This document shows, piece by piece, positions 3,090-29,434 of a stretch of 33,537 nt of DNA. The stretch spans positions 1 to 33,537 of IMG/VR virus record IMGVR_UViG_3300031576_000218; one strand, written 5' to 3'. A program made the position numbers and the translations under genes. This stretch comes from a virus. The stretch's first letter is position 1, and each line of letters starts with the position of its first letter. The notes below the pieces were generated by a model that saw only the letters and a program-made list of their open reading frames with translations, was not told the DNA's origin and ran no database searches.

Positions 3090-3333
3090 AGAGGCATACA
3101 AAATACTTGGGGTCTCTCCAGAATGTACTACGAAAGAACTTCGGACTGCTTTTGTAGCGTTGGCGAAGGTTCATCACCCAGACGCCGGAGGGTCCGCAGA
3201 AGCTTTCAGAACAATCAATGACGCCTACTTACGCGTCATTGCTATCAGGAAGGAGGGCTCTCACCCTCCTAGAGGGGAGGGAAGAGTGGTGTCCTATGGT
3301 CTAGGGAAAGTACGCCTACGAACGTCTAACTAG
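3067..3333 (+). CDS. Small J-domain (DnaJ-like) protein
   Basis: 88-residue protein that is almost entirely a J domain: helix I REAYKILGVSP, helix II TKELRTAFVALAKVHHPD with the diagnostic HPD tripeptide, then a loop DAGGSAEAFR and helix III INDAYLRV. J domains stimulate the ATPase of host DnaK. In phages, single-domain J proteins sit beside helicase or primase genes and may recruit host chaperone to remodel the replisome. That role is inferred here from position directly downstream of the primase-helicase, with which it overlaps. There is no Gly/Phe region, zinc domain or C-terminal substrate domain. It is the last plus-strand gene and overlaps the convergent late gene by 8 bp. Confidence 0.88.
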   Translation: MNLKETSREAYKILGVSPECTTKELRTAFVALAKVHHPDAGGSAEAFRTINDAYLRVIAIRKEGSHPPRGEGRVVSYGLGKVRLRTSN

Positions 3334-3661
3334 CCGCAATCCAACACGACACATCCCCAGTTCCAGTAATAATCGTTATGTCTGCTTGTACCATTAAGAC
3401 CGGTACAACTGTGAATGCTCTCAGCGCATATCTATCGACAAGTTCGGTGGCGTCGAATGTGATAGTCGCGAATATCCCTACTATGCTTGGATCAATACGG
3501 TTAATTCCTCGACGTACCACTACAGTGAGGGCTGTGAGGGGAACCGCGCTGGCGTAAGACACCTCTATTAGCCCATTAAAGGCCACTCTCTGTAGCCTTA
3601 TATAATGAGAAGGTGTGATTGCGGTCACGTCAAATTTGCTGGAAAAGAGATTATGTACCAT
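3326..3661 (-). CDS. Unrecognised last gene of the late operon, possibly tail-fibre associated
   Basis: 111 residues, not recognised. The start ATG at 3661 has a strong GGGAGG site five bases upstream, formed around the stop codon of the preceding fibre-anchor gene (GGAGGC-TAG-A-ATG), so the two are coupled. The sequence is rich in beta-branched residues, without membrane segment or signal peptide, which fits a small beta-sandwich virion component. Its place at the end of the virion operon, where P22-like phages carry tailspike genes, suggests a tail or host-contact protein, but no motif proves it. Confidence 0.7.
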   Translation of the reverse strand: MVHNLFSSKFDVTAITPSHYIRLQRVAFNGLIEVSYASAVPLTALTVVVRRGINRIDPSIVGIFATITFDATELVDRYALRAFTVVPVLMVQADITIITGTGDVSCWIAAS

Positions 3662-3662
3662 T

Positions 3663-3938
3663 CTAGCCTCCCATGTTATCTACGGTATACTGAACTACAC
3701 TGTTTACATCTTCTAGTACGACTTTGTACAAAGTCGCCTCGGCTAGCCACACGTCAGCCTCGCCGTTGGCATCAAGCACAACGGGGTTGGTATTCTGAGT
3801 GGTCTGTGTAGAGTCAATATATGTCGCGAGCGGCGTAGTCGTACCCGCCGCGAAAGAGAACAATCTGCCTCCTGCTAACGGGGCTCCATCACTATCAAAT
3901 GCTCTAAATCTCGGTTGGGGCATTAATACGGCGGCCAT
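3663..3938 (-). CDS. Short tail-fibre/tailspike N-terminal-type anchor protein
   Basis: 91 residues starting at the ATG at 3938, with GGAG six bases upstream; the longer in-frame extension to 4043 lies inside the upstream gene and lacks support. The sequence matches the N-terminal module seen at the start of many phage tail fibres and tailspikes: PQPRFRAFDSDGAPLAGG, FAAGTTTPLATY, then NPVVLDANGEADVWL and a terminal VDN. In those proteins the module leads into a long receptor-binding or lyase domain. Here the frame stops at once after it. It could be a free-standing anchor or adaptor, or the remnant of a lost tailspike. Confidence 0.75.
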   Translation of the reverse strand: MAAVLMPQPRFRAFDSDGAPLAGGRLFSFAAGTTTPLATYIDSTQTTQNTNPVVLDANGEADVWLAEATLYKVVLEDVNSVVQYTVDNMGG

Positions 3939-3939
3939 A

Positions 3940-6174
3940 TCATTCTCCAGATAATTCCGATCCAGTAACTTTCCCAGAAAGTTCTGGCGTGCTGTCGAGG
4001 AACTTAGCGAGCTCTTTAGCGAACCGTGGAGAGTCCTTGCCAAGAGTTGATGAAGTCAGTAGAAAGCGCATACCGGCCTTCGTAGTGAACAGAGTCTTCG
4101 CAAACGCTCCTAGGGCTATCCCAGACGCGGCTACAGTCGGATTGATGTAAGCCACTGCTCCACCAGAAATCATCCAAGGAAGTATTCGCTGACTACCGCC
4201 TTGAGTATGAAAGGCTCCCGCTCGCTCCACCCTGCTCATAAGTTTGGTAAAACCATCTAACTCCCATCTTTCCTTCCCTTGGAAAAACACGTTTTTTGCT
4301 TCACTGATCTTGTTGATCTCGTCTACAAACTTCTTTGGAGAGAAGACGCCAGAAGTTTTTTCGGTTGCCTCATTAATGGCAGTGGAGACCATACCATACC
4401 GAACAGCAGAACGCCCTTTTGGGTCGAGTGCTTTATAGAACTTCGCAGCACGATCGCCTTTCCCAGGCTGAATCCACTTCCCATATATCTCGTCAGGCAA
4501 ATCCGAATTCAGTGAAGAGTTGAGAAGGGGGTCTTTGTAAGGAACGACGTTGGTCTGGTAAAAAGCGTTCGCCTTACGCCACGCCTTCGCTATACTCGCT
4601 GGAGATGGTGTATCACGAGGGGAATAGCGTGGGGAAGGTGTCAAGGATTCTAAAGTGGCGAAATAACCGTCTATGTCCTTCTCTACTGCCTCCTTGATCA
4701 TGCTATAGTGTCTCCGTTCCTTACTACCAGAAGGAGCCTCTCTGACCAGATCACCAAGCTCGGACCGGAACTCCCTAAACTTCTTAAAAGTGAATCCACC
4801 AGCCTCTTTGGAGCTCTTAGGACTTTCTAGCTCCCCTAGTGCTTGCTCTATACTGCGCAACCTCCTAAAAAGACGGGGATTAGATATGACCTGTTCCGAT
4901 ACATCTTTAAATGCAGCGGAGGCCGCCATATACGATCGGTGAACCGGAAATCGTGGCAAATCGGCCTCTTCGACCATATCACCGACTTTGTCATAAAGTC
5001 GAGAAGCAAGGTCTTTTTTCTTCCACTTACTTAATTGACCAGACGCTTGAATCAACTTAGGCCAATCACCGCTAGACTCTTCAACGGCTTTCAGCAACCT
5101 CTTAGCGTACTTATCTACTCCCTCTGCGGAGGACAACCGGACGAACGGAGGGGCCTCCATCTTTTTCAGAAGCGGCGGCAGAAGCCTTGCGGCAGATACT
5201 TTCGCAGCCTCTTGTTGCGAGTGGCGAAGGGCTTGCATCCCTACAGGAAGTTGCTCCGAGGCTACTTCAGCACGTTTTACAACAGGATTCCCAGAGATAT
5301 CTCCATAAGTAAGAGGGACCCCATGCCTCTCTCCTAGAGCAATTATTTCCGCAGTTCTAAGATCTATGCTTTTCGGAGATGGCTTAACTGTGCGAACAAT
5401 CTTGGTTGCAAGAGGCAAAGCTCCCTTCACAAGCGCAGGGGCAAGAGTTCCTCCAACCACGGCTCCCGCGCCAGTTTGAACAGACTTATTTGAGAAAAAG
5501 TCTCCCTCGTTTGTGTAGACAGGCATGGACGCTCCACCGACGGCTCCGCCGATAACTCCTCGCCGAGCTGCCTGAACGAGAGTCTTTGCACCAGATAACT
5601 TACCTCCAGGTAGGGGAACCAACATACTCCCTCCTACTTCAGCAACGGTCTGCCCTACTGTGGCTTCCTTGCCTTGTAGCCAATTTTGCTCATAGTCGGC
5701 CTTCGCCACTTTGTTGCGAAGATCAATAAGATCTACATCGTCGGCGGTCTGCAAACCAATCTTCTCTCCAACATGTACTGCGGCCTGTGCCAGACCAGCA
5801 ATAGGATCTCTAATCCCTTTTAGAACAGGTCCTACTGGCGACTGGCCAATTCGTTCGCCAACCGAATCTGGCTTCGTAATGGAGTTTTTCAACATACCGT
5901 CCTGGTATCCGGAAGACTTCTTTATCTTTTCTGGCGAATAGCCGAAGGCGGATATAATTTCGTCATCCGTAGTAAGGGAACGCAAGAGCGGTACAGAAGG
6001 CTCCATTACTTCTGTGGAGACAGCCCCTTCTGGGGACATAGAGAGTGCTTCAAATATATCCTTTGGACGAGCCACACCGTTCGGAGCACGGGCAGGAGCC
6101 ACACCGTTCGGAGCACGGGCAGGAGCCGACCGTGCTTCGTCAATGACGGAGAATATGTCGACAGGATTCCCCAT
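3940..6174 (-). CDS. Large ejection (internal virion) protein, P22 gp16 position
   Basis: 744 residues. Long helical, Ala/Lys/Glu-rich protein with a glycine-rich hydrophobic stretch near residues 235-250 (GAVVGGTLAPALVKG) and another near 670-690 (GGAVAYINPTVAASG), compatible with membrane insertion. The N-terminal 40 residues hold a direct duplication of ARAPNGVA (DNA about 6080-6125). It is third in a run of three alanine-rich genes placed like P22 genes 7, 20 and 16, whose products are packaged in the head and ejected to form a conduit for DNA. No transglycosylase motif is evident, so the assignment is by position, size and composition. The start overlaps the previous stop (TAATG) and has AGGAGG upstream. 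Confidence 0.65.
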   Translation of the reverse strand: MGNPVDIFSVIDEARSAPARAPNGVAPARAPNGVARPKDIFEALSMSPEGAVSTEVMEPSVPLLRSLTTDDEIISAFGYSPEKIKKSSGYQDGMLKNSITKPDSVGERIGQSPVGPVLKGIRDPIAGLAQAAVHVGEKIGLQTADDVDLIDLRNKVAKADYEQNWLQGKEATVGQTVAEVGGSMLVPLPGGKLSGAKTLVQAARRGVIGGAVGGASMPVYTNEGDFFSNKSVQTGAGAVVGGTLAPALVKGALPLATKIVRTVKPSPKSIDLRTAEIIALGERHGVPLTYGDISGNPVVKRAEVASEQLPVGMQALRHSQQEAAKVSAARLLPPLLKKMEAPPFVRLSSAEGVDKYAKRLLKAVEESSGDWPKLIQASGQLSKWKKKDLASRLYDKVGDMVEEADLPRFPVHRSYMAASAAFKDVSEQVISNPRLFRRLRSIEQALGELESPKSSKEAGGFTFKKFREFRSELGDLVREAPSGSKERRHYSMIKEAVEKDIDGYFATLESLTPSPRYSPRDTPSPASIAKAWRKANAFYQTNVVPYKDPLLNSSLNSDLPDEIYGKWIQPGKGDRAAKFYKALDPKGRSAVRYGMVSTAINEATEKTSGVFSPKKFVDEINKISEAKNVFFQGKERWELDGFTKLMSRVERAGAFHTQGGSQRILPWMISGGAVAYINPTVAASGIALGAFAKTLFTTKAGMRFLLTSSTLGKDSPRFAKELAKFLDSTPELSGKVTGSELSGE

Positions 6175-7373
6175 TACCTGACTCCTCCTCCTGCTTCACG
6201 GATCCTTTTTATGACCTCCGCCACAGGTATTCCATGGAGTTCCGCAGTATGTACCACGTCTAAGGGGGTAAACGTCTGTCCACCCTTCTTTGCCACTAGT
6301 AAGGACGTCCCCACTCCTGGCCCAATCGCCTCCGGCCGAACCTCGGGATATAGGAGGGCACGTTTTTGAAGATCAGCCATCAGCACCACGGCGTCCGCCT
6401 CCGCGTTCGCATAAAGTAGTTCTGCAGTGCCGACTAGTTCCGCGCGTGCCTCGGGAGATAGCACATCGCCCTGTTGCCAGTTCTGCAAACGAACCGCGAT
6501 TCTCTCTGGAACACCCTTAGCCATCATAATATTCTCGATATCTGAAGGACGAACAACGCCACCAGGATCGATCATACGCATAAACCCGTTGATCAAGGCT
6601 ACGTCGCTGATACCCTTGCCTCCAGTAAGGAGCGAAGTGTGTGCCGCCTTGACCCGACCATAAGCACTGCGAACTTCAGAGAATGATTTAGTACCGTCAG
6701 TATAGTCTTTCGAAAACTTCTCTTCTAACCCATATGCAGTATCACGAGCGTCTCTGGTCGCAGCTCGTTCATGCTCGCTTACGGTTTCTTTAAATACCTT
6801 CTCTTGCTGCGTTCTGGCAGCGTCTTGGGAGGCTTCCTGCCTCAACTGCCGCTGTTCGTCAAAAGATAAAGCCGCCACTTTACGCGACTCTACAAAGGCT
6901 GGATCATACGTTTCAGGTATCTTATCTGCTCCAGGAAGTCCCAGTCGTATGCCTTGCTCTCTTGCATACTGATAACTCGGCTCATCATGAATGCTATCCA
7001 GAAGTTTCTTCCCTATCCCTAACTGCTTTTCAGTCAAACCCATTGCAGAAGTGCTCTTACTCTGGCTCTCGGCCTCCATTTTCTGGGCTGCAAGAGGGTC
7101 AATGGTGTACAGCTCTTGTAAGAATCCTTTCTCGTTGAACCCAGACGTGCCATCTACAGTCTTTGTAGTGTACTTTTGATAGAGTCCTCGTATAGTCTCC
7201 TCGCTCATTTCCTGAGCGTGAGCACTCCTCTCTGCCCGCTTGGACTTCGCCAATGTCAGCAAATTATCCCTTCTAACAACATCCTCGTCATGCAGCTCCT
7301 TCTCAGTTTTGAAGGTAACTGGAGGCCGAGTTCCACGAAAATCTTTGCTGTATATAGACGTATCAAACGGCAT
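6174..7373 (-). CDS. Ejection (internal virion) protein, P22 gp20 position
   Basis: 399 residues, strongly charged and predicted helical, with coiled-coil-like stretches (for example QLRQEASQDAARTQQEKVF near 180-200). No enzyme motif and no signal peptide. The start ATG at 7373 has AGGAG about six bases upstream, and the stop overlaps the next gene. It lies between the two other alanine-rich virion genes, so a DNA-ejection or internal scaffold role is inferred from synteny with P22-like phages; the family itself is not recognised. Confidence 0.6.
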   Translation of the reverse strand: MPFDTSIYSKDFRGTRPPVTFKTEKELHDEDVVRRDNLLTLAKSKRAERSAHAQEMSEETIRGLYQKYTTKTVDGTSGFNEKGFLQELYTIDPLAAQKMEAESQSKSTSAMGLTEKQLGIGKKLLDSIHDEPSYQYAREQGIRLGLPGADKIPETYDPAFVESRKVAALSFDEQRQLRQEASQDAARTQQEKVFKETVSEHERAATRDARDTAYGLEEKFSKDYTDGTKSFSEVRSAYGRVKAAHTSLLTGGKGISDVALINGFMRMIDPGGVVRPSDIENIMMAKGVPERIAVRLQNWQQGDVLSPEARAELVGTAELLYANAEADAVVLMADLQKRALLYPEVRPEAIGPGVGTSLLVAKKGGQTFTPLDVVHTAELHGIPVAEVIKRIREAGGGVR

Positions 7374-7381
7374 ATAGTCTC

Positions 7382-8281
7382 CTATCGAGCAGTCTTATTA
7401 AATCCCCCTTGCCCCGCCTTCACCCCAGTCTGTGCAAGAGAACTAATGGTATCGTTAATTATGCCTCCTTGCGCAACTGTCGCTGCGGCGGCGGCGTTGC
7501 CTTGTCCTATGCGCACATTTCCTATATTATTTAGACCGGAGGCATTGGCTCCTGCGTAACCCGCCCGTAGAATAGCCAAGTCCTGAATAGCCTGTTGTCT
7601 CTGGCCAGAAATGGTAGAAATCGCCGACGACCTATCTCGTTCAGCCCCAGTGTAATCTATACCGGCCCCGATTTTAAGTTGAGCTCCTTGAAGACCTCTA
7701 TCTGCTAAATCCGACAAGGTAAGTCGTCTAGACTCACGGTTCTTAGAATATCTGTCGAAAGCCGCCGCATATTCGTCAGACGCAGTTCCTTGTGCAAATC
7801 GCTCCAGCTCCTTAAACTGTCTGCCAGACAACAACATGCCACGAGAAGCAGCTCCGCGCTCTAAAGCCTTTTGCCCCTCGGCCATACGAAACTGGTAGCC
7901 TTCGTCATCCATAAACTGCTGACGATTCCAAGGATTATCTGCATCCAGCGAAGCAAGTCCGGAGGTAGCCGTCTGACCAGCCTGTATGATAGGATCGATC
8001 CCAGATATTTGATCAGCATACTGAGCTTCTCTATCCGACAACGCTGTTGCGAATCTACCACCTGTCGCCAATTGCTCAGCGGCCAACCTCCTTTGCTCTC
8101 TAGCATAGGCTTTATCCGTACGCCCTAACTGCCGTCTATTGAATTCTAACGCAGCACGCTGGTCTTGAACGGCTCTTTCGCCCGCCGCGTATTGTTTATC
8201 TTCAGCACGTTCAGCGGAGACATAGTCTATAGTCCCTCCAACAATGGCCGAACCCACAATCGCAGTAACAACCCAAGCCAT
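7382..8281 (-). CDS. DNA transfer/ejection protein, P22 gp7 position
   Basis: 299 residues. The N-terminus MAWVVTAIVGSAIVGGTIDY is a short hydrophobic glycine-rich segment, followed by a long helical Gln/Arg/Ala-rich body and a glycine-rich tail. The segment EGYQFRMAEGQKALERGAAS followed by RGMLLSGRQFKELERFAQG is a pattern I recognise from proteins widely annotated as phage DNA-transfer or injection proteins in podoviruses. The likely role is assembly in the envelope after ejection to help DNA entry. The start ATG at 8281 follows GGAGGG and overlaps the cupin-like gene's stop region, so translation is coupled. Confidence 0.7.
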   Translation of the reverse strand: MAWVVTAIVGSAIVGGTIDYVSAERAEDKQYAAGERAVQDQRAALEFNRRQLGRTDKAYAREQRRLAAEQLATGGRFATALSDREAQYADQISGIDPIIQAGQTATSGLASLDADNPWNRQQFMDDEGYQFRMAEGQKALERGAASRGMLLSGRQFKELERFAQGTASDEYAAAFDRYSKNRESRRLTLSDLADRGLQGAQLKIGAGIDYTGAERDRSSAISTISGQRQQAIQDLAILRAGYAGANASGLNNIGNVRIGQGNAAAAATVAQGGIINDTISSLAQTGVKAGQGGFNKTAR

Positions 8282-9067: not shown

Positions 9068-9720
9068 TACAACCCCTCCTGTATTCTTGATACTCCAGAA
9101 ATGGTGATGACAGCCCCTGTTACAGCCCATGACGGCATGTTCAAAGTCCGGGAAGCATTCTGAACCACCGCACTACCAAATCCGCCGCCGACTATGGCTG
9201 AGACGTTCATCACTCCATAACCGAACGCCTTGTATGGAAGATTATTTACAGTGGTCACACCGTTAGTCGAAGAAGTCGTGCTACCGAACGTAGGTGTGAT
9301 GAGAAGTTCCAAGTATTGCCATCCCTTTATCCGCAAGAAGTGTCCTGAGATAGCGACTGTTCCCGCTACAGTTAATCCGACAAACACAGGAGTCCATACT
9401 CCAGCCGACACTCGACAGTGTGCAGAAACCCCTTCTAGCAACTCTATCCGATCCTGAAGCCACGATACAAGTGGTTGGCTTGGAGCAGAACCCCCCTCTA
9501 GCGCCTCTATCCGATCCTGAAGCCTTTGTAGTTCTCCACGCACACCAGAAGCATTTTCTGCCAAATCTAGGGCAGAGAAATCATCAGAACTTGCTAAAGC
9601 CGCTCCGCCGGAACCGCTCCCCACACTTCCAAACACACGTTGAAGCCATAACGCCCAAATTGGACTCATCAATCCATGTTTGTCAAGGACGGGAGTTTGT
9701 ATTGGAGGGCGACTAAGCAT
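9067..9720 (-). CDS. Probable tail protein with short coiled coil
   Basis: 217 residues from the ATG at 9720, coupled to the upstream stop codon (TAATG). The N-terminus LSRPPIQTPVLDKHGLMSP then IWALWLQRVF is a pattern common at the start of small phage tail proteins. Residues about 60-105 contain a duplicated heptad block (LQDRIEALEG and LQDRIELLEG; the DNA repeat unit CTCTATCCGATCCTGAAGC appears twice near 9443 and 9506), suggesting a trimeric coiled coil. The C-terminal half is a beta-rich domain ending in MPSWAVTGAVITISG. It follows gp10 like the P22 tail needle gene, and could fill a tail-tip role, but I see no sequence match to the needle. Confidence 0.6.
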   Translation of the reverse strand: MLSRPPIQTPVLDKHGLMSPIWALWLQRVFGSVGSGSGGAALASSDDFSALDLAENASGVRGELQRLQDRIEALEGGSAPSQPLVSWLQDRIELLEGVSAHCRVSAGVWTPVFVGLTVAGTVAISGHFLRIKGWQYLELLITPTFGSTTSSTNGVTTVNNLPYKAFGYGVMNVSAIVGGGFGSAVVQNASRTLNMPSWAVTGAVITISGVSRIQEGL

Positions 9721-10064
9721 TAGCCACTCACCGACACTTTCATTTCCGCTCCTAACAAAACTACCTTCACAGGGGCAGTTATTATGAACCGAAATACTCG
9801 GTCTCTGGCCATTCCTAGCCTTCGCCAAATAAGTCTCGTGGAGTGGCGACCAGCATCACCAATACTACCCCATTCCTCTTTTGACCACGAATGGCCTCCG
9901 TCACTGCTATATTGAAGAACAGCCTGCGGATACCTTGAATAAGCCAAAGACTGTAGTCCAACGCCTGTCTCCATATCAAGTTGTATACTGTGATAAATTA
10001 TGCGATCCAACCCATTACTGATATGGGGAGTACTCCGCAATCTCAGTATGGGCGAACACGCCAT
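9720..10064 (-). CDS. Detached C-terminal segment of gp10-like packaged-DNA stabilisation protein
   Basis: 114 residues. The sequence RLRSTPHISNGLDRIIYHSI, LDMETGVGLQ, YSSDGGHSWSKEEWGSIG, IWRRLGMARDRVFRF and PVKVVLLGAEM is the C-terminal part of the P22 gp10-like packaged-DNA stabilisation family, normally continuous with the rest of a protein of about 470 residues. Here it has its own ATG (10064) and an AAAGGATAG site that contains the stop codon of the preceding holin gene. The N-terminal part is encoded upstream in the large fusion gene. The piece presumably joins that protein in the head-tail connector as a separate subunit. Confidence 0.82.
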   Translation of the reverse strand: MACSPILRLRSTPHISNGLDRIIYHSIQLDMETGVGLQSLAYSRYPQAVLQYSSDGGHSWSKEEWGSIGDAGRHSTRLIWRRLGMARDRVFRFIITAPVKVVLLGAEMKVSVSG

Positions 10065-10067
10065 CTT

Positions 10068-10376
10068 CTATCCTTTCTTTCCAAGTCGCGTAATCAATAT
10101 CTGCTCCATAAGAAACACAGTTCTTGTGCCAAAATGTCCTGATATACCGACACAGACCGCCGACCAAAGAGGAGGAACCCCCGTAGCCTCACAAGCCCAA
10201 AAGGTAAGAATACCAGCGAACGCGCTGGTAGTAAGCTCCCCGACTAATTCGGTTACGTTAATCACTCTTGCATGTCCCTCTCGCATCTTTCTCATGAAAG
10301 ATACTATCCCTCCCCACAAAGACAGTCCAACAATCCAGATATACGTAGTAGCCGAGTAATCTTCAGGGTTAGTCAA
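10068..10376 (-). CDS. LydA-type holin (phage holin superfamily III)
   Basis: 102 residues from the TTG at 10376, which has GGAG six bases upstream; an upstream TTG at 10400 is possible but has no clear site. Three hydrophobic segments can be read: YIWIVGLSLWGGIVSF (about 10-27), TTSAFAGILTFWACEATGV (about 44-62), and LWSAVCVGISGHFGT (about 66-80). The pattern of a tryptophan-glycine first helix, a middle FAG-ilTF helix and a terminal isGHfGTR motif is that of LydA-like holins. Holins make membrane holes that start lysis. No endolysin is visible in this window. The gene is inserted between the two halves of the gp10-like gene. Confidence 0.8.
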   Translation of the reverse strand: MTNPEDYSATTYIWIVGLSLWGGIVSFMRKMREGHARVINVTELVGELTTSAFAGILTFWACEATGVPPLWSAVCVGISGHFGTRTVFLMEQILITRLGKKG

Positions 10377-10408
10377 GGTATTCTCCAACTTTACGTTCAA
10401 TGTAGTAA

Positions 10409-13400
10409 CTAGGCGATGCGCACTCTATGGGCGCGGCCAATTGAGTCAAAGCATATTGCCATCAAAAGATTGTCGTCGATCTGTATATTAGTAAAATCGT
10501 CGAAGGTGTCGGACACACCCGGGATAAAGAGTCCGTCTATGTACGCCAACGTACCAGCGTCGAACCGCGCAAGAGTATTCGTATTGTAGTCCCAAGCAAA
10601 CAATTTATTCAGTGTCTGTGAGTAACTCATCCGGGTTGATGAAGTCGGAGGCGTAACAACCTGAACGACCAGGAGGGTCTGTTGGCTGATCTTATAAATG
10701 TCCCCGCCGTTGACGGCGTAGATAAACCCACCACCGATGCAAGCCCACTGAAGTGTGACGGGCAGACTAGTATTCATTACCCCTGTTGTTGCGAACGGCG
10801 AACGCGTCAACTTTTCGACGCTAATCCCATCGCGACACATAAAGACATGCTGCCCATCTTCGCTAAAAAGCATGATAGACCCGCTGAACGGTGTGGCGTT
10901 ATTCGGAAGCAAAGACGGAATCATTGCCCCGACCTGCAATATATTCGTCAAGTCCATTTGAGCGTAAAACCGATTGAGAGTGCCGGTCTCTGTAACGTCC
11001 AGCACTCCGAAGTTCCCGCTCGTCTTCATCCTGACATGTATCGGAACACCTCCGAACGGTGGCGTAAACGGTACCGTTCCCATTAGTAGATAGGAAGGTG
11101 GCGCGTAATACCCAATCGCCGTCAATGAACTTCCTGCAGAGGTATACGCATAGAAGTCGGCGTCGATGGTCATTGAATTTTCGTCCAAAAACCCGTCAAA
11201 AACACTGCCCGTGCTGGCTATCAACGATAATCCGCTCGCATAGTTAAGTATTCGAACATCTCCGTTGTCTGAAAAGTATGTCGCGTAGACATTCCTTCCA
11301 ACTGGATCGATATGCGAAAAATTAGGAGTCCCGAAGACTGGCCGTACCACTATCGAGTCGATATAGGAGAATCCGGACGGTATCGCAACAGGCTTCAGCC
11401 GGAACCTTACAACGGTATCTCCAGATGTAGCAATGGCGACACCCAACTCATCGTCTATTGCTATAGTGTCAAAGCCTTCTATGCCCACAAACGGCGTCGA
11501 TCCGGTCTGAATGAGTGTTACAGGATCGAGGCGCACAAGCGCATCGACCGTCCCCTCCTGAGATATGAACAAGGCATTCAGACTTTCCGATACAACCATT
11601 CCCCCCATGCTTCCTAGTCCGGTATTGACTGCTGTCTGAACTAAAGTAGATTGGCTGTAGCGATAAAGATCTTGCGGACTGTCTCCGCTGACGTAGATCG
11701 CCCCCGCGCCAACCGCTAGCGCGTTAAACAAGAAGGATGGAACAATGACTATACTCGCATTGGCCCCCACGGAAAACGGGGAAAGGGTGCACTTTTCAAT
11801 AGATGAATTAAACCGGACAACAAAAAAGGTGTTCTCGTCCTCACTGAAGAGTATATTTCTGAAGGCGTTGGTACCCCCCGCCAAGACGTTCGACTGGATC
11901 ATTGCCCCGACCTGCGCCAGTCCCGCCAAATCCATCTTGGCGTAATGTACTTCAGAGGTATCCTTGTTCATAACAACGAGGATTCCTACGTCCCCCTTAC
12001 CAGCAAAGCCAAGAGTCCGCGCCCCGACTAATGGGGTAGTGGTATCTGGAGGAAATGGGGTCGTATATGGAACGATAGAGTCGAACACGTATGCTGGACG
12101 AAGAAACCTTCGGATGTGGGCATAGAAGAGCGGCGTTGGTTCGTAATCTTCAAGTCCAACCACGAATGCGTCAAACGTAGAATTAAAAGCACTGTTGTGT
12201 ACACCAAATATATCTACGAGAATATTTCCGGCATTAGAATCTACCGAGAGATTCGGCGAATAAGTTACAACAGACACCGTACCATCGTCTAGACTCAGGT
12301 AAGCCTTCTTGTTCACCGAGTCTATACTAATGGAATGGGCGGTCGTTCCCGACTTGACAACCAGAGACTGTTCAATCTGATGAAACTGGAAGGGTAGTAC
12401 AGACACCGTTACCTGATTGCTTACCGTCACTCCCAGTGTTGCTGTGATTATAGCCGCTCCATTCGCGACGCCCGTGGCAAGTCCTGCGGCATTGATTGTA
12501 ACGAACGAAGGAAAAGAAGACACCCATGTCACTAGCGCGGTCAGATCAGCCATACTCGCGTCGGAATATGTGCCGATGGCGAGGAATTGTCTAGTCTCCT
12601 CCTCGTAGACGATGGGATCGACCGGCGTGATGGAGATGCTCATCAGCGAAACAACAGCGTTACCGTGTCCGGCTAAAACACGACCTCCGCCGAATGGGCC
12701 AGTTCCAGGGAGCAGACTCGCGTCCCCGCAACCTTCCCCAAACTCATCTTCATACGTATCTAGGCGCCACTCATACAAAATTGGCTCAGCATAATCCCCT
12801 ACAATATGTTTCCCATAAGCATAGGAGTGAACACCTGCCCTATGACGTTCCAAAACTCCATTATTGAGAAATGCGCGTTCGTGCCAAAATTGAGTAGTTG
12901 TATCATATACCCAAGTCGTATTCAGTCCAGGAACATTAAGGACATAAAACTCATGGCCTTCTTGTTGATATGTAAAGGCTACCGCCCCTGTTAAGTCCGA
13001 TAATGCTTGTAGAGACAATTCCACCGCGTGAGTAGATATTCTCGTTGGGACATAGCCGGAGGCAGAAAATATAACAGCCCCGCCACTGCGATCGCTACCA
13101 AGCCAGAAAACATTACCGCTTAACTTAGCAACCGAGTGAGTAGCCAAACAGCCTTGTTCAATGTACGCCCCTTCTATTCGTTCAAAGGGAAAATCAGGAT
13201 TACCACTATTGAAGTAAACTTCTATGGACGCTTCTCCGAATAACCACAATTCTCGGTGGTCGCTCAGCAAACTTATCAACTTATCAGGAGCGCCCTCCGC
13301 CGTCGCGAAGTCCAACGAGTCTATATTGAATCCATCATACAGAGAAGTTATGTAAAATTGAGCCGTTCCAGGCTTGTTAAGTATGAAAAAACCGTCTTGG

Positions 13401-13837
13401 AAAGTGACTTTATCTGCACCGACAAAATCCGGATCTGTCACATCCTGAAACAGTCCTAGGCCAATCGTGAAAATGTACCCATTCGAACCGTCTACGACAA
13501 AGATCTGCAGACCATTGTCTGCCATGCTAACAATTCCAGACGTTGTCTGGAGTGTTCCAAGAGTATCCAACGTGTTGTTAGAATTAACACGATAAAAAGT
13601 ATCTAGAATGACAACATAAAGTACATTGTTTGAGGCCGTAAATGCTCCCCGCACACTGCCGGTAGAACCCACTGTACCATATAATTTCAATCCAGGAGTG
13701 CCTATGAGACACCCCACGTCGCCTTCTTTACCAGTACCTACTTCGTTCATCTCAGGATATAGATTTACACACCTCTGGGCGTCGGCAGACACAGACTGAT
13801 TAGTGTGACTACCTCCTATGAATCCTGCCAATCGCAC
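10409..13837 (-). CDS. gp10-like stabilisation protein N-terminal part fused to Ig-like and tandem beta-propeller-like domains
   Basis: 1142 residues from the GTG at 13837, which has GGAGGT seven bases upstream and overlaps the gp4-like stop (TAGTG); the TTG at 13852 precedes that site. Residues 1 to about 368 are the P22 gp10-like family: GFIGGSHTNQSVSADAQRCV, NLYPEMN, GTPGLKLYGTVG, RELWLFGEASIEVYFNSG, to DTYEDEFGE. The family's C-terminal section does not follow. Instead comes a Gly/Pro linker, a BIG2-like domain (about 399-479: SISITPVDPIVYEEETRQF, LVTWVSS), then two homologous units of roughly 320 residues with propeller-like strands. Matching landmarks are YAKMDLAGLAQVGAMI and YAQMDLTNILQVGAMI, LFSEDENTFF and LFSEDGQHVF, and IEKCTLSPF and VEKLTRSPF. 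The first part would plug the portal channel; the extension may project from the tail and bind the host. Confidence 0.85.
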   Translation of the reverse strand: MRLAGFIGGSHTNQSVSADAQRCVNLYPEMNEVGTGKEGDVGCLIGTPGLKLYGTVGSTGSVRGAFTASNNVLYVVILDTFYRVNSNNTLDTLGTLQTTSGIVSMADNGLQIFVVDGSNGYIFTIGLGLFQDVTDPDFVGADKVTFQDGFFILNKPGTAQFYITSLYDGFNIDSLDFATAEGAPDKLISLLSDHRELWLFGEASIEVYFNSGNPDFPFERIEGAYIEQGCLATHSVAKLSGNVFWLGSDRSGGAVIFSASGYVPTRISTHAVELSLQALSDLTGAVAFTYQQEGHEFYVLNVPGLNTTWVYDTTTQFWHERAFLNNGVLERHRAGVHSYAYGKHIVGDYAEPILYEWRLDTYEDEFGEGCGDASLLPGTGPFGGGRVLAGHGNAVVSLMSISITPVDPIVYEEETRQFLAIGTYSDASMADLTALVTWVSSFPSFVTINAAGLATGVANGAAIITATLGVTVSNQVTVSVLPFQFHQIEQSLVVKSGTTAHSISIDSVNKKAYLSLDDGTVSVVTYSPNLSVDSNAGNILVDIFGVHNSAFNSTFDAFVVGLEDYEPTPLFYAHIRRFLRPAYVFDSIVPYTTPFPPDTTTPLVGARTLGFAGKGDVGILVVMNKDTSEVHYAKMDLAGLAQVGAMIQSNVLAGGTNAFRNILFSEDENTFFVVRFNSSIEKCTLSPFSVGANASIVIVPSFLFNALAVGAGAIYVSGDSPQDLYRYSQSTLVQTAVNTGLGSMGGMVVSESLNALFISQEGTVDALVRLDPVTLIQTGSTPFVGIEGFDTIAIDDELGVAIATSGDTVVRFRLKPVAIPSGFSYIDSIVVRPVFGTPNFSHIDPVGRNVYATYFSDNGDVRILNYASGLSLIASTGSVFDGFLDENSMTIDADFYAYTSAGSSLTAIGYYAPPSYLLMGTVPFTPPFGGVPIHVRMKTSGNFGVLDVTETGTLNRFYAQMDLTNILQVGAMIPSLLPNNATPFSGSIMLFSEDGQHVFMCRDGISVEKLTRSPFATTGVMNTSLPVTLQWACIGGGFIYAVNGGDIYKISQQTLLVVQVVTPPTSSTRMSYSQTLNKLFAWDYNTNTLARFDAGTLAYIDGLFIPGVSDTFDDFTNIQIDDNLLMAICFDSIGRAHRVRIA

Positions 13838-14547
13838 TATCCCAACCTCCAATTAAATCGCCCGCCGCCAGAACCGCGGAGAAGGGCTGAATCAGTATCA
13901 AGTACTACAGCACGACTATTAACATTCTTGAGGGAAGCCTTCGAGTCCATAGCAACTCTAATAACCACCTCCGATGGCAGGGCGCCGTACATAGACGCCA
14001 TCTCTAGAGCCAGGTTATATGTCAGCGCACGTTTATATCCAGGAGGCAGTACAAGTACTGTGTCAAGAACTGAGTCAACAGCCAACGCATTCCACGAATA
14101 CAGGGCAAGTCGGCTAGGGACACTCGGTACAGGCCATAGATATAGAATACTGTTTGGGACTGCATTCTCTAGATATACAGACGTAGGATACGACGACGTA
14201 ATCGTCTTTACAACGATATCCGCATACTGCGTGACATCTATAACCTTCATAGGCAACTCGTAAGAAGGAGTTACATCAATTATTAGACCAGCCTTTTCAA
14301 GAACGGTAGGTCTGGGCTGTGTGAACAAGGCTCCGACTTCTCCGATGGAGTATGTCGACACTCCTACCGTTAGAGGATGCTCGTTACGAACGGTGGAATA
14401 CGTCAAATTGTGCTCAATATTCCAAGCCTCCATAATGCCACGGAGAAGACTCAGAGCATCCGAGGCTTCAGAACTCGTAGGAGCCTCGTTCTGACCAATG
14501 GCCGCTATAAGAAGCATCGACTGTCTGATAAGTTCTCTAATAGACAT
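13837..14547 (-). CDS. Head completion/tail accessory protein, P22 gp4-like
   Basis: 236 residues from the ATG at 14547, with GGAG seven bases upstream; the GTG at 14553 is the longer alternative. Helical N-terminus (IRELIRQSMLLIAAIGQNEA) followed by EASDALSLLRGIMEAWNIEH, a layout typical of P22 gp4-like adaptors that bind below the portal ring to close the head. Its position between coat and gp10-like genes is exactly that of P22 gene 4. P22 gp4 also has muramidase activity; I see no basis to assign that here. The stop overlaps the start of the gp10 fusion. Confidence 0.78.
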   Translation of the reverse strand: MSIRELIRQSMLLIAAIGQNEAPTSSEASDALSLLRGIMEAWNIEHNLTYSTVRNEHPLTVGVSTYSIGEVGALFTQPRPTVLEKAGLIIDVTPSYELPMKVIDVTQYADIVVKTITSSYPTSVYLENAVPNSILYLWPVPSVPSRLALYSWNALAVDSVLDTVLVLPPGYKRALTYNLALEMASMYGALPSEVVIRVAMDSKASLKNVNSRAVVLDTDSALLRGSGGGRFNWRLG

Positions 14548-14600
14548 ACACACTCTCCGTCTGGAGAGCGGGGCCTAGCCCCGCTCTCCAGAGACATCTA

Positions 14601-20657: not shown

Positions 20658-20686
20658 TGTATAGCACACTTACGGCTAAAAAGCAA
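20658..20686 (-). promoter_or_regulatory. Predicted sigma70-type promoter for the late operon
   Basis: On the minus strand TTGCTT (20686-20681), a 17-bp spacer and TATACA (20663-20658), with TGC directly before the -10 (extended -10). The ATG of terS begins six bases after the -10, so the transcript would start at or next to the start codon. Pattern match only. Confidence 0.45.
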
Positions 20687-20717
20687 GCCCCCCCACCTTG
20701 TACTTACTAACCCTTCT

Positions 20718-21180
20718 CATTTTCCTCGGTGGTGGCGGTAACCTCCGTCTCATTCTCATTCTCATTCTCATTCTCATTCTCATTCTCATTCTCATTCTCA
20801 CTCTCATTCTCACTCTCATTCTCACTCTCATTCTCACTCTCCCTCTCATTCTCATTTTCCTCGGTGGTGGCGGTAACCTCCGTCTCATTCTCATTCTCAT
20901 TCTCATTCTCATTCTCATTCTCATTCTCATTCTCATTCTCACTCTCATTCTCACTCTCATTCTCACTCTCATTCTCACTCTCCCTCTCATTCTCATTTTC
21001 CTCGGTGGTGGCGGTAACCTCCGTCTCATTCTCATTCTCATTCTCATTCTCATTCTCATTCTCATTCTCATTCTCATTCTCACTCTCATTCTCACTCTCA
21101 TTCTCACTCTCATTCTCACTCTCCCTCTCATTCTCATTCTCACTCTCCCTCTCATTCTCATTTTTCTCGGTGGTGGCGGT
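20718..21180. repeat. Hexamer (CTCATT/CTCACT) satellite in a higher-order array
   Basis: Three long blocks of CTCATT hexamers, each preceded by a conserved non-repeat header (TTTCCTCGGTGGTGGCGGTA, starting at 20721, 20856 and 20997) and closed by a fourth, diverged header at about 21162. Header-to-header distances are 135, 141 and 165 bp, differing only by multiples of six. Within each block a run of pure CTCATT gives way to alternating CTCACT/CTCATT, then CTCCCT. The plus strand is almost all pyrimidine, so the region is a long polypurine/polypyrimidine tract. No stop codon can form inside the hexamers, which explains the long spurious reading frames on both strands. Confidence 0.95.
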
Positions 21181-25517: not shown

Positions 25518-25685
25518 TAGGCAATAATTGCCTAGCCTTTGCCTAGCCTTTGCCTAGCCTTTGCCTACCCACCCTACCGGTAGTGTGTGTGGGCAATGTG
25601 GAGGGCCTATATGTAGGGGGTGGCGTGGCGGCCTACGGCGTGCATTACTTGGGGGGTGTGTAGCGGGGCCATTGTGGAGGATATT
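25518..25685. promoter_or_regulatory. Repeat-rich leader before the modification cassette
   Basis: No gene. It holds TAGGCAA/TTGCCTA around TAA (25518-25534), three tandem TTGCCTAGCCT units (25528-25560, period 11) with a diverged fourth, and CTACCGGTAG (25572-25581). Before the ATG comes TGTGTAGCGGGGC, nearly identical to TGCGTAGCGGGGC in the leader at 22253-22265, suggesting common regulation of the two operon starts. Confidence 0.5.
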
Positions 25686-26534
25686 ATGAAGGACTACTTG
25701 CTATATGTACCAAGTCGTGGACGGCCCTACGGGGATACGGTCAAGTGTCTGAGTGCAGGGGGCTTAACTGCCAGAATGCGCCTAGTTATACGGGAGGAAG
25801 AGGTGCCTCTTTATGCAGAACCATCTACGAGAGTAGACGGCGGGTTCTATACTCCTCACGGCGTTAGGATTCTAACCACGTCGGCGCAGACTATCACGCA
25901 GACAAGACAGTGGATTGTTGATCAACACGACACGTCCCTCTACGGAGCATTCATTTGTATGTTAGACGACGATTTGAAGTTTTATCGGCGCAGCGCCGTT
26001 GATCCTTCAAAGTTTCTAGCACTAGACTCAAGTACGGAGCATGCTGAGATGTTCGACGCATTGCATGATGCTTGGAACTTTGACAAATATGCGCACGTCG
26101 GTATCCTTCCTAGGGAAGGGGCGCATATCCTCACAGAAAACGCGGAGTGTATACGCAATATGAGATTGTTGTGTTATGACGTAGAGGTTCTGAGAGAGAA
26201 GGCAATACTGTTCAGAACAAGTGGGCGAGAAGACTTCGATGTTCAGTTGCAATTGATAAAGGCCGGTTATAAAAACTTGGCGTTGTATAGATGGTGTCAC
26301 AATCAAAAAGGGAGTGGGTTGGTTGGAGGAGTTAGCGACTATCTGACATTATCAGATCGTAGTAGTATGTGTCAGGAACTAAAGGATTTCCATCCTGATT
26401 TGGTGGAAATCGTTGAAAAGCATACGAAAACGGCGTGGGGCGGGCAGTCAAGACTAGATGTTAGGATTGCTTGGAAAAAGGCATATACTCTTTATGGGAG
26501 GAGAAATCATGTTTCGCCCGATGTTAGCGGCTAG
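25686..26534 (+). CDS. GT-A glycosyltransferase of the TET/JBP-associated type (TAGT-like)
   Basis: 282 residues from the ATG at 25686 (GGAGG five bases upstream). Opening YVPSRGRP (7-14), then a run of acidic residues VIREEEVPLY, CMLDDDLKFY (DDD at 94-96, the nucleotide-sugar metal site) and GREDFDVQLQLIKAGYKN (RED at 181-183), which follow the order seen in TAGT-type glycosyltransferases predicted to sugar-modify hydroxymethylated bases in DNA. It begins the operon that also contains a hydroxymethylase-type thymidylate synthase homologue and a 5-hmdU-kinase-related protein, so the likely acceptor is 5-hydroxymethyluracil in phage DNA. The sugar donor cannot be told. It overlaps the ligase gene by 26 bp. 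Confidence 0.78.
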   Translation: MKDYLLYVPSRGRPYGDTVKCLSAGGLTARMRLVIREEEVPLYAEPSTRVDGGFYTPHGVRILTTSAQTITQTRQWIVDQHDTSLYGAFICMLDDDLKFYRRSAVDPSKFLALDSSTEHAEMFDALHDAWNFDKYAHVGILPREGAHILTENAECIRNMRLLCYDVEVLREKAILFRTSGREDFDVQLQLIKAGYKNLALYRWCHNQKGSGLVGGVSDYLTLSDRSSMCQELKDFHPDLVEIVEKHTKTAWGGQSRLDVRIAWKKAYTLYGRRNHVSPDVSG

Positions 26535-27402
26535 AACAGAAGGAAAGGGGTTGTACTATCCTCTCCTACTATCTCCAAAGTTGGACGGTATCCGAGCACT
26601 GGTAGTAGACGGTGTCGTTAGGAGCCGTTCTATGAAGCCTATCCCCAATCAATATATCCAAGAAAAATACGGTAAGGCTGAGTTGAATGGGGCAGACGGA
26701 GAGTTGATTCTAGGAGATCCTACCGACCCTTTCTGTTTTAGAAAGACGACATCGGCCGTCATGTCTAATACCTATAACTTATGCTCAGAGGTTTGTTATT
26801 ACATCTTTGACAAAACCGATTCAGACAATCCGTACTACATGAGGCAAAAGGAACTAGAGGCTTATACCCTCCCCGTTAGTCCTTTTATCACTCAGGTCAT
26901 ACAATCGTATGTCGGCAGTGATTCGGAGCTTTTCTCACTAGAAGAATCCCTAGTTTCTGCGGGATACGAAGGGGTGATGCTGCGAGACTCTAATACCTAC
27001 TATAAGAACGGGCGCAGCACTCACAACGAGGCCTGTCTTCTAAAGTTGAAGCGATTTAACGATAGTGAAGCCATTGTGTGCGGTTTTGAGGAGTGTAATC
27101 GTAATTCTAACGCTCCTATCGACAACGAACTCGGCTATGTCTCGCGGACTTCTCACTCAGCGGGCATGGTCGGCAAGAATACTCTTGGAGCACTGCTGGT
27201 TAGAGATTGCGCAACAGGAGTGGAGTTCAGTATTGGTTCTGGGTTCACAGCAGGTGAACGTTATGTAATATGGAATGATCAACCATTTCACTTGGGGAAG
27301 ATCGTAAAGTATAAGTTCTTCCCAAAAGGGTCAAAGGACAAGCCAAGATTCCCAATATTTTTGGGGTTTAGATCCATCATAGACTTAGCACTCACGCCAT
27401 AA
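26509..27402 (+). CDS. ATP-dependent DNA ligase
   Basis: 297 residues, a minimal ligase with nucleotidyltransferase and OB domains only. Motif I SPKLDGIRA with the adenylated Lys24, motif Ia RSRSMKPIPNQ, motif III ADGELIL (62-68), motif IV EGVMLRD (154-160) and motif V LLKLKRF (177-183). The C-terminal part, from about 200, is the OB fold. It seals nicks at Okazaki fragments. The ATG at 26509 has GGGAGGAG five bases upstream; the start at 26458 would be inside the glycosyltransferase gene with no site. Confidence 0.9.
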   Translation: MFRPMLAARTEGKGLYYPLLLSPKLDGIRALVVDGVVRSRSMKPIPNQYIQEKYGKAELNGADGELILGDPTDPFCFRKTTSAVMSNTYNLCSEVCYYIFDKTDSDNPYYMRQKELEAYTLPVSPFITQVIQSYVGSDSELFSLEESLVSAGYEGVMLRDSNTYYKNGRSTHNEACLLKLKRFNDSEAIVCGFEECNRNSNAPIDNELGYVSRTSHSAGMVGKNTLGALLVRDCATGVEFSIGSGFTAGERYVIWNDQPFHLGKIVKYKFFPKGSKDKPRFPIFLGFRSIIDLALTP

Positions 27403-27411
27403 GGAGAGAAT

Positions 27412-28392
27412 ATGCGCGTAATCAATGTTTCCGACTGCAACGCCGCTTTGAAAATAGGGCTGGCCTATTTATTGAATCGCGGCGTAGTTGAGAATTCTAG
27501 GAATGGGGAGGTGTTGGTTGCTCCAGAGCCTGTTACAACGGTCTATTCAAAGCCTAATAGGCGTGTCCTGAACTCGCCTATTAGAAACGCCAATCCATTC
27601 TTCCATGTAATGGAATCCTTGTGGATGCTTGCAGGACGGCAGGATGTTGCATGGCCAGCAAAGTTCGTAAAAAATATGGTGAACTATAGCGATGACGGCG
27701 TCACTCTATCAGGAGCATACGGAAATAGATGGAGGCAACATTTTGGCGTTGATCAACTGGCGTGGGTGGTAGACACTCTTTGCAAAGATCCAACAACGAG
27801 GAGGTGTGTCGTGAGTATGTGGGACGTGTCTAAGGATACAGAGGCCTCTGATAGAGAGGGCAAAGATATTCCCTGTAATACTCACGTCTACTTTTCTGTC
27901 CATGCGAACCTTCTTCGTATGACAGTGTGCTGTAGGTCTAATGACGTACTTTGGGGAGCGTATGGGTCAAACTATGTACACTTCACCTTTCTTATGGAGT
28001 ATATCGCCAATCAATTAGGCATAGGACTGGGGCAATATTCTCAGATCAGTAACAATTATCATGTATATTTGCGACAATATCCGAGAGAAGTCCTTCGTGA
28101 TATAGTGGCTGAACCGTTTGTTCGGTACCCCGATAAGGTGCAATGCCCATTGATATCGTCTTCAGTCACAGACTGGCATCGTGACCTAGAAAACTTTCTC
28201 GACTTTGGAGCTTCTGAACAACAGTACACCGATAGATTCTTCCCTGACGTCGCCAAGCCCATGTATGACGCGTGGACTTTTCAGAACAAAGGCATGCACC
28301 TGGCTAGTCTGTTTCAGTGCGCCGTTATTAAGGACGATGGTTGGCGGAGAGTGTGTACAGAATGGGTTCTGCGTAAAATGAACAAACTTTAA
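27412..28392 (+). CDS. Thymidylate synthase-family enzyme, candidate dUMP hydroxymethylase
   Basis: 326 residues. Catalytic Cys155 in DIPCNTHVYFS, phosphate-binding CCRSNDVLWG (R175 S176), GAYGSN with Asn187 at the base-selective position, and NNYHVYL with the conserved His217/Tyr219. Asparagine here indicates dUMP; deoxycytidylate hydroxymethylases carry aspartate. The spacing in WGAYGSN and the C-terminus, lacking the usual folate-binding tail, differ from ordinary thymidylate synthase and resemble phage members that hydroxymethylate. Context (glycosyltransferase, hmdU-kinase-family protein) supports 5-hydroxymethyl-dUMP formation, but plain thymidylate synthesis is not excluded by sequence alone. 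The start ATG at 27412 has GGAGAG upstream. Confidence 0.85.
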   Translation: MRVINVSDCNAALKIGLAYLLNRGVVENSRNGEVLVAPEPVTTVYSKPNRRVLNSPIRNANPFFHVMESLWMLAGRQDVAWPAKFVKNMVNYSDDGVTLSGAYGNRWRQHFGVDQLAWVVDTLCKDPTTRRCVVSMWDVSKDTEASDREGKDIPCNTHVYFSVHANLLRMTVCCRSNDVLWGAYGSNYVHFTFLMEYIANQLGIGLGQYSQISNNYHVYLRQYPREVLRDIVAEPFVRYPDKVQCPLISSSVTDWHRDLENFLDFGASEQQYTDRFFPDVAKPMYDAWTFQNKGMHLASLFQCAVIKDDGWRRVCTEWVLRKMNKL

Positions 28393-28402
28393 GGAGGTTA
28401 TT

Positions 28403-28552
28403 ATGGACGAAGACGCTATTATAGAAGAGCTCTCTGATCTTGACGAGGGCGACGGGGTTGACGGTAATTGTTCGTGCGGGATACGCGGTTCGCATTCCGA
28501 TAAGACGCATAACAGCATGTTGACAGGGACAGACGATAGTGATTTTCGCTAA
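28403..28552 (+). CDS. 49-residue acidic protein with Cys/His cluster
   Basis: ATG at 28403 has a full AAGGAGG site five bases upstream, so it is very probably expressed. The sequence begins MDEDAIIEELSDLDEGDG (strongly acidic) and then has CSCGIRGSHSDKTH, a C-x-C-x5-H-x4-H set that could bind one metal ion. No family recognised. It lies between thymidylate synthase and HD phosphohydrolase, so a small regulator or DNA mimic of the nucleotide-modification enzymes is possible. Confidence 0.65.
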   Translation: MDEDAIIEELSDLDEGDGVDGNCSCGIRGSHSDKTHNSMLTGTDDSDFR

Positions 28553-28578
28553 CTTACCAAATTGACAAAGGAGTGTTG

Positions 28579-29130
28579 ATGTACACCAAAGACGTCTCAG
28601 ACAGTCTGCCTTCCGTTGAGAGCAGCATGTGGCCGTATCTCCCGTCAGACACTCAACTAGAGATAGTTCGCCGTGGAGCGGCGGTTAAACGATTCCACAC
28701 CATCCCTACCATTCACGAGAATACGGTTGGGCAGCACACCTTTGGATGTCTTGCCTTGTTGCATGTGCTGTATGACGATATAAGTCTGGAGTTAGTTAAA
28801 TATGTCTTGATGCACGATATTTCTGAACAAGTTACGGGAGACATTCCATCTCCTGCTAAAAAGAGAGGGTACGTCACAGTAAATAGCCTCAGTTATCTTT
28901 CCTATCTACTGCCCACAATAGACGAAAGAGACCGTCGCCGAATGAAGCTTGTAGATGTGCTGGACGGGATGCTCTTTTGTATCGAAGAACGGTTACTTGG
29001 AAATCTCAACGTAGTGGAAGTTTTTAATACCTATAAGACCTATGCAGAAGATCTGATTAAAGACGGGTCGTCGTCAGAGAAAGCTGTATGGAAGACTGTA
29101 TTGTGGAAATGGGAGGCTTCTAATGGCTAA
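28579..29130 (+). CDS. HD-domain nucleotide phosphohydrolase (YfbR-like)
   Basis: 183 residues from the ATG at 28579 (AAAGGAG five bases upstream; the GTG at 28573 overlaps that site). HD-domain motifs in order: VGQHT with His53, MHDISEQVTGDIP with His79, Asp80, Glu83 and the TGDIP of the YfbR group, and LVDVLDG with Asp126 or Asp129 completing the metal site. Such enzymes dephosphorylate deoxynucleoside mono- or triphosphates. In a phage replacing thymine they would deplete the normal nucleotide (dTMP or dTTP). Substrate is inferred from context. The gene overlaps the DUF3310 gene by 8 bp. Confidence 0.85.
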   Translation: MYTKDVSDSLPSVESSMWPYLPSDTQLEIVRRGAAVKRFHTIPTIHENTVGQHTFGCLALLHVLYDDISLELVKYVLMHDISEQVTGDIPSPAKKRGYVTVNSLSYLSYLLPTIDERDRRRMKLVDVLDGMLFCIEERLLGNLNVVEVFNTYKTYAEDLIKDGSSSEKAVWKTVLWKWEASNG

Positions 29131-29434
29131 TGCGAATGACCGACAAGTTGGTGGTAATCACTATGGAGCAGAGATACAGCATTGGGACTTTGCACTCTCG
29201 AATAATCTCGGGTATTTTGAGGGACAGATCACTAAATACGTCACACGTTGGAGAAAAAAGGGAGGGATTGCGGATTTGGAAAAGGCTCAGCACTTTCTTC
29301 AGAAACTGATTGAAAGCGAGCGTAGTAGATTAGAGGCTGTAAGAGAGGCTTCTTTGAAGATAGATGAGCAATGCGTCTCTCTAGAAGTAGTAACTCCCCC
29401 TTTTAAAAGAGGTTATTATGACAAGTCCGTATGA
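29123..29434 (+). CDS. DUF3310 protein
   Basis: 103 residues. VGGNHYGAEIQHWDFALSNN, EGQITKYVTRWRKKGGIADL and EKAQHFLQKLIE are the signature of DUF3310, a small protein common near phage nucleotide-metabolism genes and sometimes annotated as nucleotide kinase-like, though no P-loop is present. The function is not established. GGAGG lies six bases before the ATG, inside the end of the HD gene; it overlaps the following gene by 17 bp. Confidence 0.88.
   Translation: MANANDRQVGGNHYGAEIQHWDFALSNNLGYFEGQITKYVTRWRKKGGIADLEKAQHFLQKLIESERSRLEAVREASLKIDEQCVSLEVVTPPFKRGYYDKSV

Follow-up and report, generated by a model that had tools for sequence, protein, structure and literature searches.

Here we report that the gene for the gp10-like tail nozzle protein is split in two in the environmental phage contig IMGVR_UViG_3300031576_000218, a 33,537-base IMG/VR record that was analysed over its full length (the window). 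In P22-like heads, gp10 is a ring protein that seals the head and makes up the tail tube, a part of the channel that retains packaged DNA. In the window, its N-terminal part opens a long chain of 1142 residues and its C-terminal domain is encoded separately as a gene of 114 residues; a Big_2 domain, two repeats of ∼330 residues, a stop codon and a holin gene lie between them. The best overall explanation, to which we give a probability of about 60%, is that a segment carrying Ig-like and propeller-like domains together with a holin was inserted into gp10 and gave rise to a working two-chain nozzle. As far as can be judged from the sequence, the nozzle is probably made from two chains, both functional, in a family where almost every relative uses one.

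The window comes from a short-tailed phage (podovirus) with a P22-like late module. Profile searches placed the small and large terminase, portal, scaffold, P22-type coat, adaptor, gp10 and ejection proteins on the minus strand, while the plus strand holds replication and nucleotide genes. Features bearing on the split are collected in Table 1. Elsewhere in the contig, the space separating the coat gene from the adaptor gene holds a perfect inverted repeat of 15 bp (14560-14592), probably a terminator or processing hairpin. A low-complexity minus-strand ORF between the terminase and the plus-strand genes (20676-21161), composed of Arg-Met/Arg-Val dipeptide repeats and a repeated 15-residue unit, may not be a gene but an array of tandem repeats. 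On the plus strand, a glycosyltransferase-like gene (phrog_842), a ligase, a member of the thymidylate-synthase family and a 5-hmdU DNA kinase (PF18723, E 1e-102) form a probable DNA hypermodification cluster (25620-30389).

Table 1. Features of the window that bear on the divided gp10 gene.
Feature	Position	Strand	Evidence
Orphan tailspike head-binding-type domain, ~91 aa	3663..3938	-	Comparison with 15 related records
Putative tail needle, 217 aa	9067..9720	-	Sequence reading; match at same position in L007
gp10/Hc3 C-terminal domain as own 114-aa gene (gp10C)	9720..10064	-	PHROG 578 positions 368-471; conserved columns; start context
Holin, LydA / superfamily III (class III) type	10068..10376	-	PF16083 E 1.7e-20; phrog_785 E 5e-24
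Two tandem ~330-aa repeats, propeller-like by inspection only	10412..12397	-	Internal duplication
Big_2 bacterial Ig-like domain, residues ~400-478 of long chain, in-frame fusion	12404..12640	-	PF02368 E 7.9e-10
gp10/Hc3 N-terminal part, residues 1-368 of long chain (N-terminal strands and beta-propeller) (gp10N)	12734..13837	-	PHROG 578 positions 8-364; fold matches; start context
Head-tail adaptor, gp4-like	13837..14547	-	phrog_12985 E 9e-35; phrog_637 head-tail adaptor E 6e-6

Two gp10 pieces and the position of the break

The long gene (10409..13837, minus strand) runs from a GTG at 13837, its best start, to a stop at 10409. Against the 486-position PHROG 578 profile, 'head closure Hc3', its product matches with E 7e-100 and the 114-residue ORF with E 7e-22, so that each part matches the family profile although the two do not share one polypeptide. 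Both ORFs are as the initial annotation had described them, and their coverage of the profile is complementary, which refutes the possibility that both align to one and the same stretch of gp10. Aligned relatives show ...DTYSDN-GDEITRQRITPH... where the N chain of the window ends in ...LDTYEDEFGE, and the C chain starts (MA)CSPILRLRSTPH at the exact spot where relatives have ...DTYSDNGDEITRQRITPH. The C piece resumes where the N piece stops, with only a few linker residues altered; no domain is gone, nothing conserved is missing and the order of the family is kept, which agrees with the earlier proposal that none of the family's continuation had been lost. The label “virion plug protein” under which that proposal was made has to be abandoned, as gp10 is the nozzle or head-closure ring and the plug is the needle.

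The one-piece gp10 of the relative L007, modelled with AlphaFold2 (pLDDT 82, pTM 0.83), matches P22 gp10 (8eap) at TM 0.78, and also Sf6 gp8, Pan3 and Pam1. On this model the break falls at residues ∼360-366, past the last propeller strand (351-356), ahead of six C-terminal strands (383-473) and adjoining a less confident linker (371-380); it lies between the family's domains, with the propeller on one side and the C-terminal domain on the other. The top PDB fold matches of a model of the 1142-residue chain, used for the gp10 part only and of moderate AlphaFold2 confidence there, were Pan3, P22 gp10, Sf6 gp8 and Pam1. P22 gp10, Sf6 gp8, the Pam1 needle head and PHROG 578 are comparable to the window in the shared family of both pieces, the position after the adaptor and the predicted fold of the one-piece relative; unlike the window, the solved members have their 442-472 residues in a single chain and lack the Ig and propeller-like extension.

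In the nozzles of SU10 and T7 a platform domain is formed from N- and C-terminal parts around the propeller, extra domains are inserted (Ig-like in SU10), and the SU10 chain exits the propeller at blade 1 toward the C-terminal part of the platform (PMC9509320, PMC6702177). These nozzles differ from the window in being single chains and in carrying their extra domains elsewhere in the propeller. By analogy with SU10, the window gene would have been cut at the hand-over from the propeller to the C-terminal platform, and a break that separates one folded unit from another is the type that would most likely be tolerated in trans.

Gene order places the two pieces in the same way. The adaptor gene sits immediately upstream of gp10, as it does in relatives, and is followed by the N piece; the C piece precedes the 217-aa gene, and these same flanks enclose the one-piece gp10 of L007, in which a counterpart of the 217-aa gene lies directly 3′ of the uninterrupted reading frame. 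Family profile searches gave no match for the 217-aa product, which on reading consists of an N-terminal segment, a coiled-coil-like repeat and a C-terminal domain; it is likely to be the tail needle. Two near-identical 40-nt copies inside this gene, 63 nt apart (9422-9524), are consistent with duplication of the coiled-coil repeat.

Expression signals and conservation of both pieces

Ribosome sites are present at all three starts. The GTG of gp10N stands behind TTGGAGG and overlaps the end of the adaptor gene as TAGTG, and the holin starts at a TTG preceded by TTGGAG. For the C piece, a check of start contexts located the independent ATG and ribosome site that had been claimed for it: AAAGGA lies within the last codons of the holin, the ATG follows 3 nt past the holin stop, and at its other end the gene overlaps the start of the needle-like gene as TAATG. 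Only TAG-AAG separates the C piece from the holin, whose reading frame it shares, and the two halves might be rejoined into one chain by way of an intron or a split intein, by readthrough at the stop codon of the holin or by ribosomal bypass. We regard rejoining as very improbable. TAG is the most frequent stop among the genes of the contig, so that stop-codon recoding was ruled out, and readthrough would in any case join the C piece to a membrane holin and not to gp10N. The N chain is open through the insert, just two residues stand ahead of the C piece, and searches with Rfam models, a tRNA search and Pfam found no intron, tRNA or intein.

Conservation was assessed against 230 non-redundant intact homologues. 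At columns conserved in at least 95% of them the window keeps 23/23 residues in the N part and 10/10 in the C part; at columns conserved in at least 90% it keeps 94% and 95%, respectively, and 28-33% of the intact homologues do no better. Divergence is equal in the two parts, with identities to the nearest relatives (N/C) of 55/56% for L196, 54/55% for L199 and 51/54% for L007. Open frames, retained columns and even divergence bear out the earlier view that neither part has decayed.

The main competing account treats the C piece as a leftover: the long chain would suffice, its new domains having replaced the C-terminal domain, and the 114-aa gene would be vestigial or only recently cut off. 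The C piece does lack some near-invariant residues, having lost the TGQG motif and exchanged one D for A, and the relatives known do not permit a time-resolved test of selection on gp10C. However, its frame is open and equipped with a start, a ribosome site and an overlapping stop, the most conserved columns are all kept, it has diverged no further than the N part, and nearly all relatives with a complete gene have the C-terminal domain. We therefore consider a leftover unlikely, if still worth weighing. On its sequence gp10C reads as an expressed gene and not a remnant.

The inserted segment and the survey of relatives

The Ig domain and the repeats extend the gp10N chain by ∼770 residues. 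The repeats share 30% identity over ∼330 aa (E 5e-24), indicating a tandem duplication. The initial annotation had called this a propeller fusion: the fusion stands, and the label rests on the duplication and a blade-like pattern visible by eye, but the repeats match no propeller model in Pfam, PDB or NCBIfam and no PDB homologue by sequence, and AlphaFold2 applied to the full 1142-aa chain models the insert at pLDDT <50. Homologues of the Ig and repeat module were sought in phage records, where only the Ig part matches, and in viral contigs, where none was found.

The holin scores 73.3 bits against PF16083, for a curated cut-off of 28.4. Of 15 related records, 14 gave no match to this family, so the holin and the extension may have arrived together. 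A donor with an adhesin-holin gene order was considered and rejected: the holin relatives in L098-L106 have large upstream genes without an adhesin match, which by eye are closer to ejection proteins. Direct repeats flanking the insert are short and may be due to chance. Codon usage of the insert departs from that of the late genes (z -5.4), as does that of the replication genes to a similar degree, whereas gp10N, gp10C and the holin resemble the late genes.

The departure in codon usage could also mean that a metagenome assembler joined a foreign piece into gp10, particularly as the window is a single metagenomic contig and no second copy of its arrangement was found in the contigs searched. 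Such a chimera would require two false joins that happened to yield an in-frame fusion together with a well-placed ribosome site, an ATG and a complete domain; both gp10 halves are equally far from the same relatives and occupy syntenic places, and the GC profile has no step. An assembly artefact is accordingly improbable, and we continue to favour a genuine insertion into gp10.

Related loci were gathered from viral contigs, bacterial genome contigs and phage records, some contigs being fetched repeatedly, and were examined with an N profile and a C profile derived from relatives. In 308 of the 329 loci, N and C were collinear within a single frame. Contig ends truncate most of the other 21 loci, a few diverge or have a frameshift within the N part, and two are the window itself, leaving L247 (fetched again as L254) as the remaining exception. 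The six relatives on bacterial genome contigs include no second split, one being cut by a contig end, and the literature searched, with partial coverage, holds no report of a split gp10. The arrangement is unusual, as had been proposed, and in relatives the gene is indeed single and uninterrupted. Nothing was found to support the reverse history, in which the nozzle was ancestrally encoded by two genes that became fused in all other lineages; the predominance of one frame, which extends to the distant homologues of P22, Sf6, Pan3 and Pam1, and the intact genes of all the nearest relatives (∼50-55% identity) make it the most remote of the explanations considered.

In L247 (IMGVR_UViG_3300027796_000048, 5923-8212) gp10 occupies two overlapping frames. 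The first stops inside the C domain soon after ...LDMETGKTPANGG; the second has an ATG start and encodes a kelch-like propeller, with weak Pfam kelch matches below the cut-offs, followed by the remainder of the gp10 C domain. In L255-L258, which are 81-82% identical to L247 over the last 72 residues, the same loop is uninterrupted and in one frame. The sequences indicate that a propeller-like domain independently entered the gp10 C domain of L247, whether as one chain or two, since a G5 run at the join means that a frameshift or indel could give a single chain with an inserted propeller. L247 resembles the window in having N and C parts in two frames and a propeller-type insert, but differs in that its break is inside the C-terminal domain, the propeller is on the second chain and no holin lies at the break. 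It is, on present sequences, a probable parallel and independent split of gp10, and a split of the window's type may consequently not be unique. The two-frame gp10 of L250 was set aside, as an indel more likely accounts for its break, which lies within the propeller part at seven consecutive T. In L008 (7462-9330) and many similar loci, in-frame insertions of ∼150-350 aa with repeats of the SGTIAVGQ...GTGTGGxGTYTV kind occur near window residue 131-139, from which it appears that gp10 tolerates insertions at several loops.

A probable two-chain nozzle and a possible role in host binding

On the preferred reading, a segment comprising the Ig-like domain, the double propeller-like module and the holin would have entered gp10 where the propeller meets the C-terminal domain. 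Its upstream junction is in frame, giving the propeller half its long extension, and the downstream half would have persisted as a separate gene by means of a new ATG and a ribosome site within the last holin codons, coupled to the needle-like gene. The nozzle ring would then consist of six long chains and six 114-residue C-terminal domains, if the usual six-fold copy number applies, with the C-terminal domains docking non-covalently, and so assembling in trans, where they are normally covalently linked. Six large arms would be displayed on the tail, possibly with a role in receptor binding. A partial precedent is provided by the T5-like phages DT57C and DT571/2, in which LtfA and LtfB are two proteins for a tail structure that is one in T5 (PMC4728585). 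That structure is a lateral tail fibre and not a channel ring, and LtfA and LtfB are two adhesins, not one domain cut from another.

The tailspike of the window offers a possible context for such arms. In all 15 related records the tailspike head-binding domain belongs to a frame of 185-1128 aa, whereas in the window it stands alone, with a 111-aa gene of unknown kind immediately after it (3326-3938, minus strand). We saw no large tailspike in the late module, although the contig may be incomplete and a spike could lie elsewhere. Its absence may be the reason the insert was kept. That host binding passed to Ig-repeat arms on the nozzle is a tentative suggestion; also tentative is the general proposition that podoviruses have repeatedly made the nozzle ring a platform for host binding through insertion of propeller-type adhesin modules at, or within, the C-terminal domain of gp10, with trans docking leading to a stable two-gene nozzle and, in the window, an orphaned spike.

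On a practical level, searches for a single-gene gp10 will miss or truncate split cases. A natural split of gp10 probes the independence of the propeller and the C-terminal platform domain as modules, and bears on whether a part of the virion channel can be built in trans and whether receptor binding can shift from the tailspike to the nozzle.
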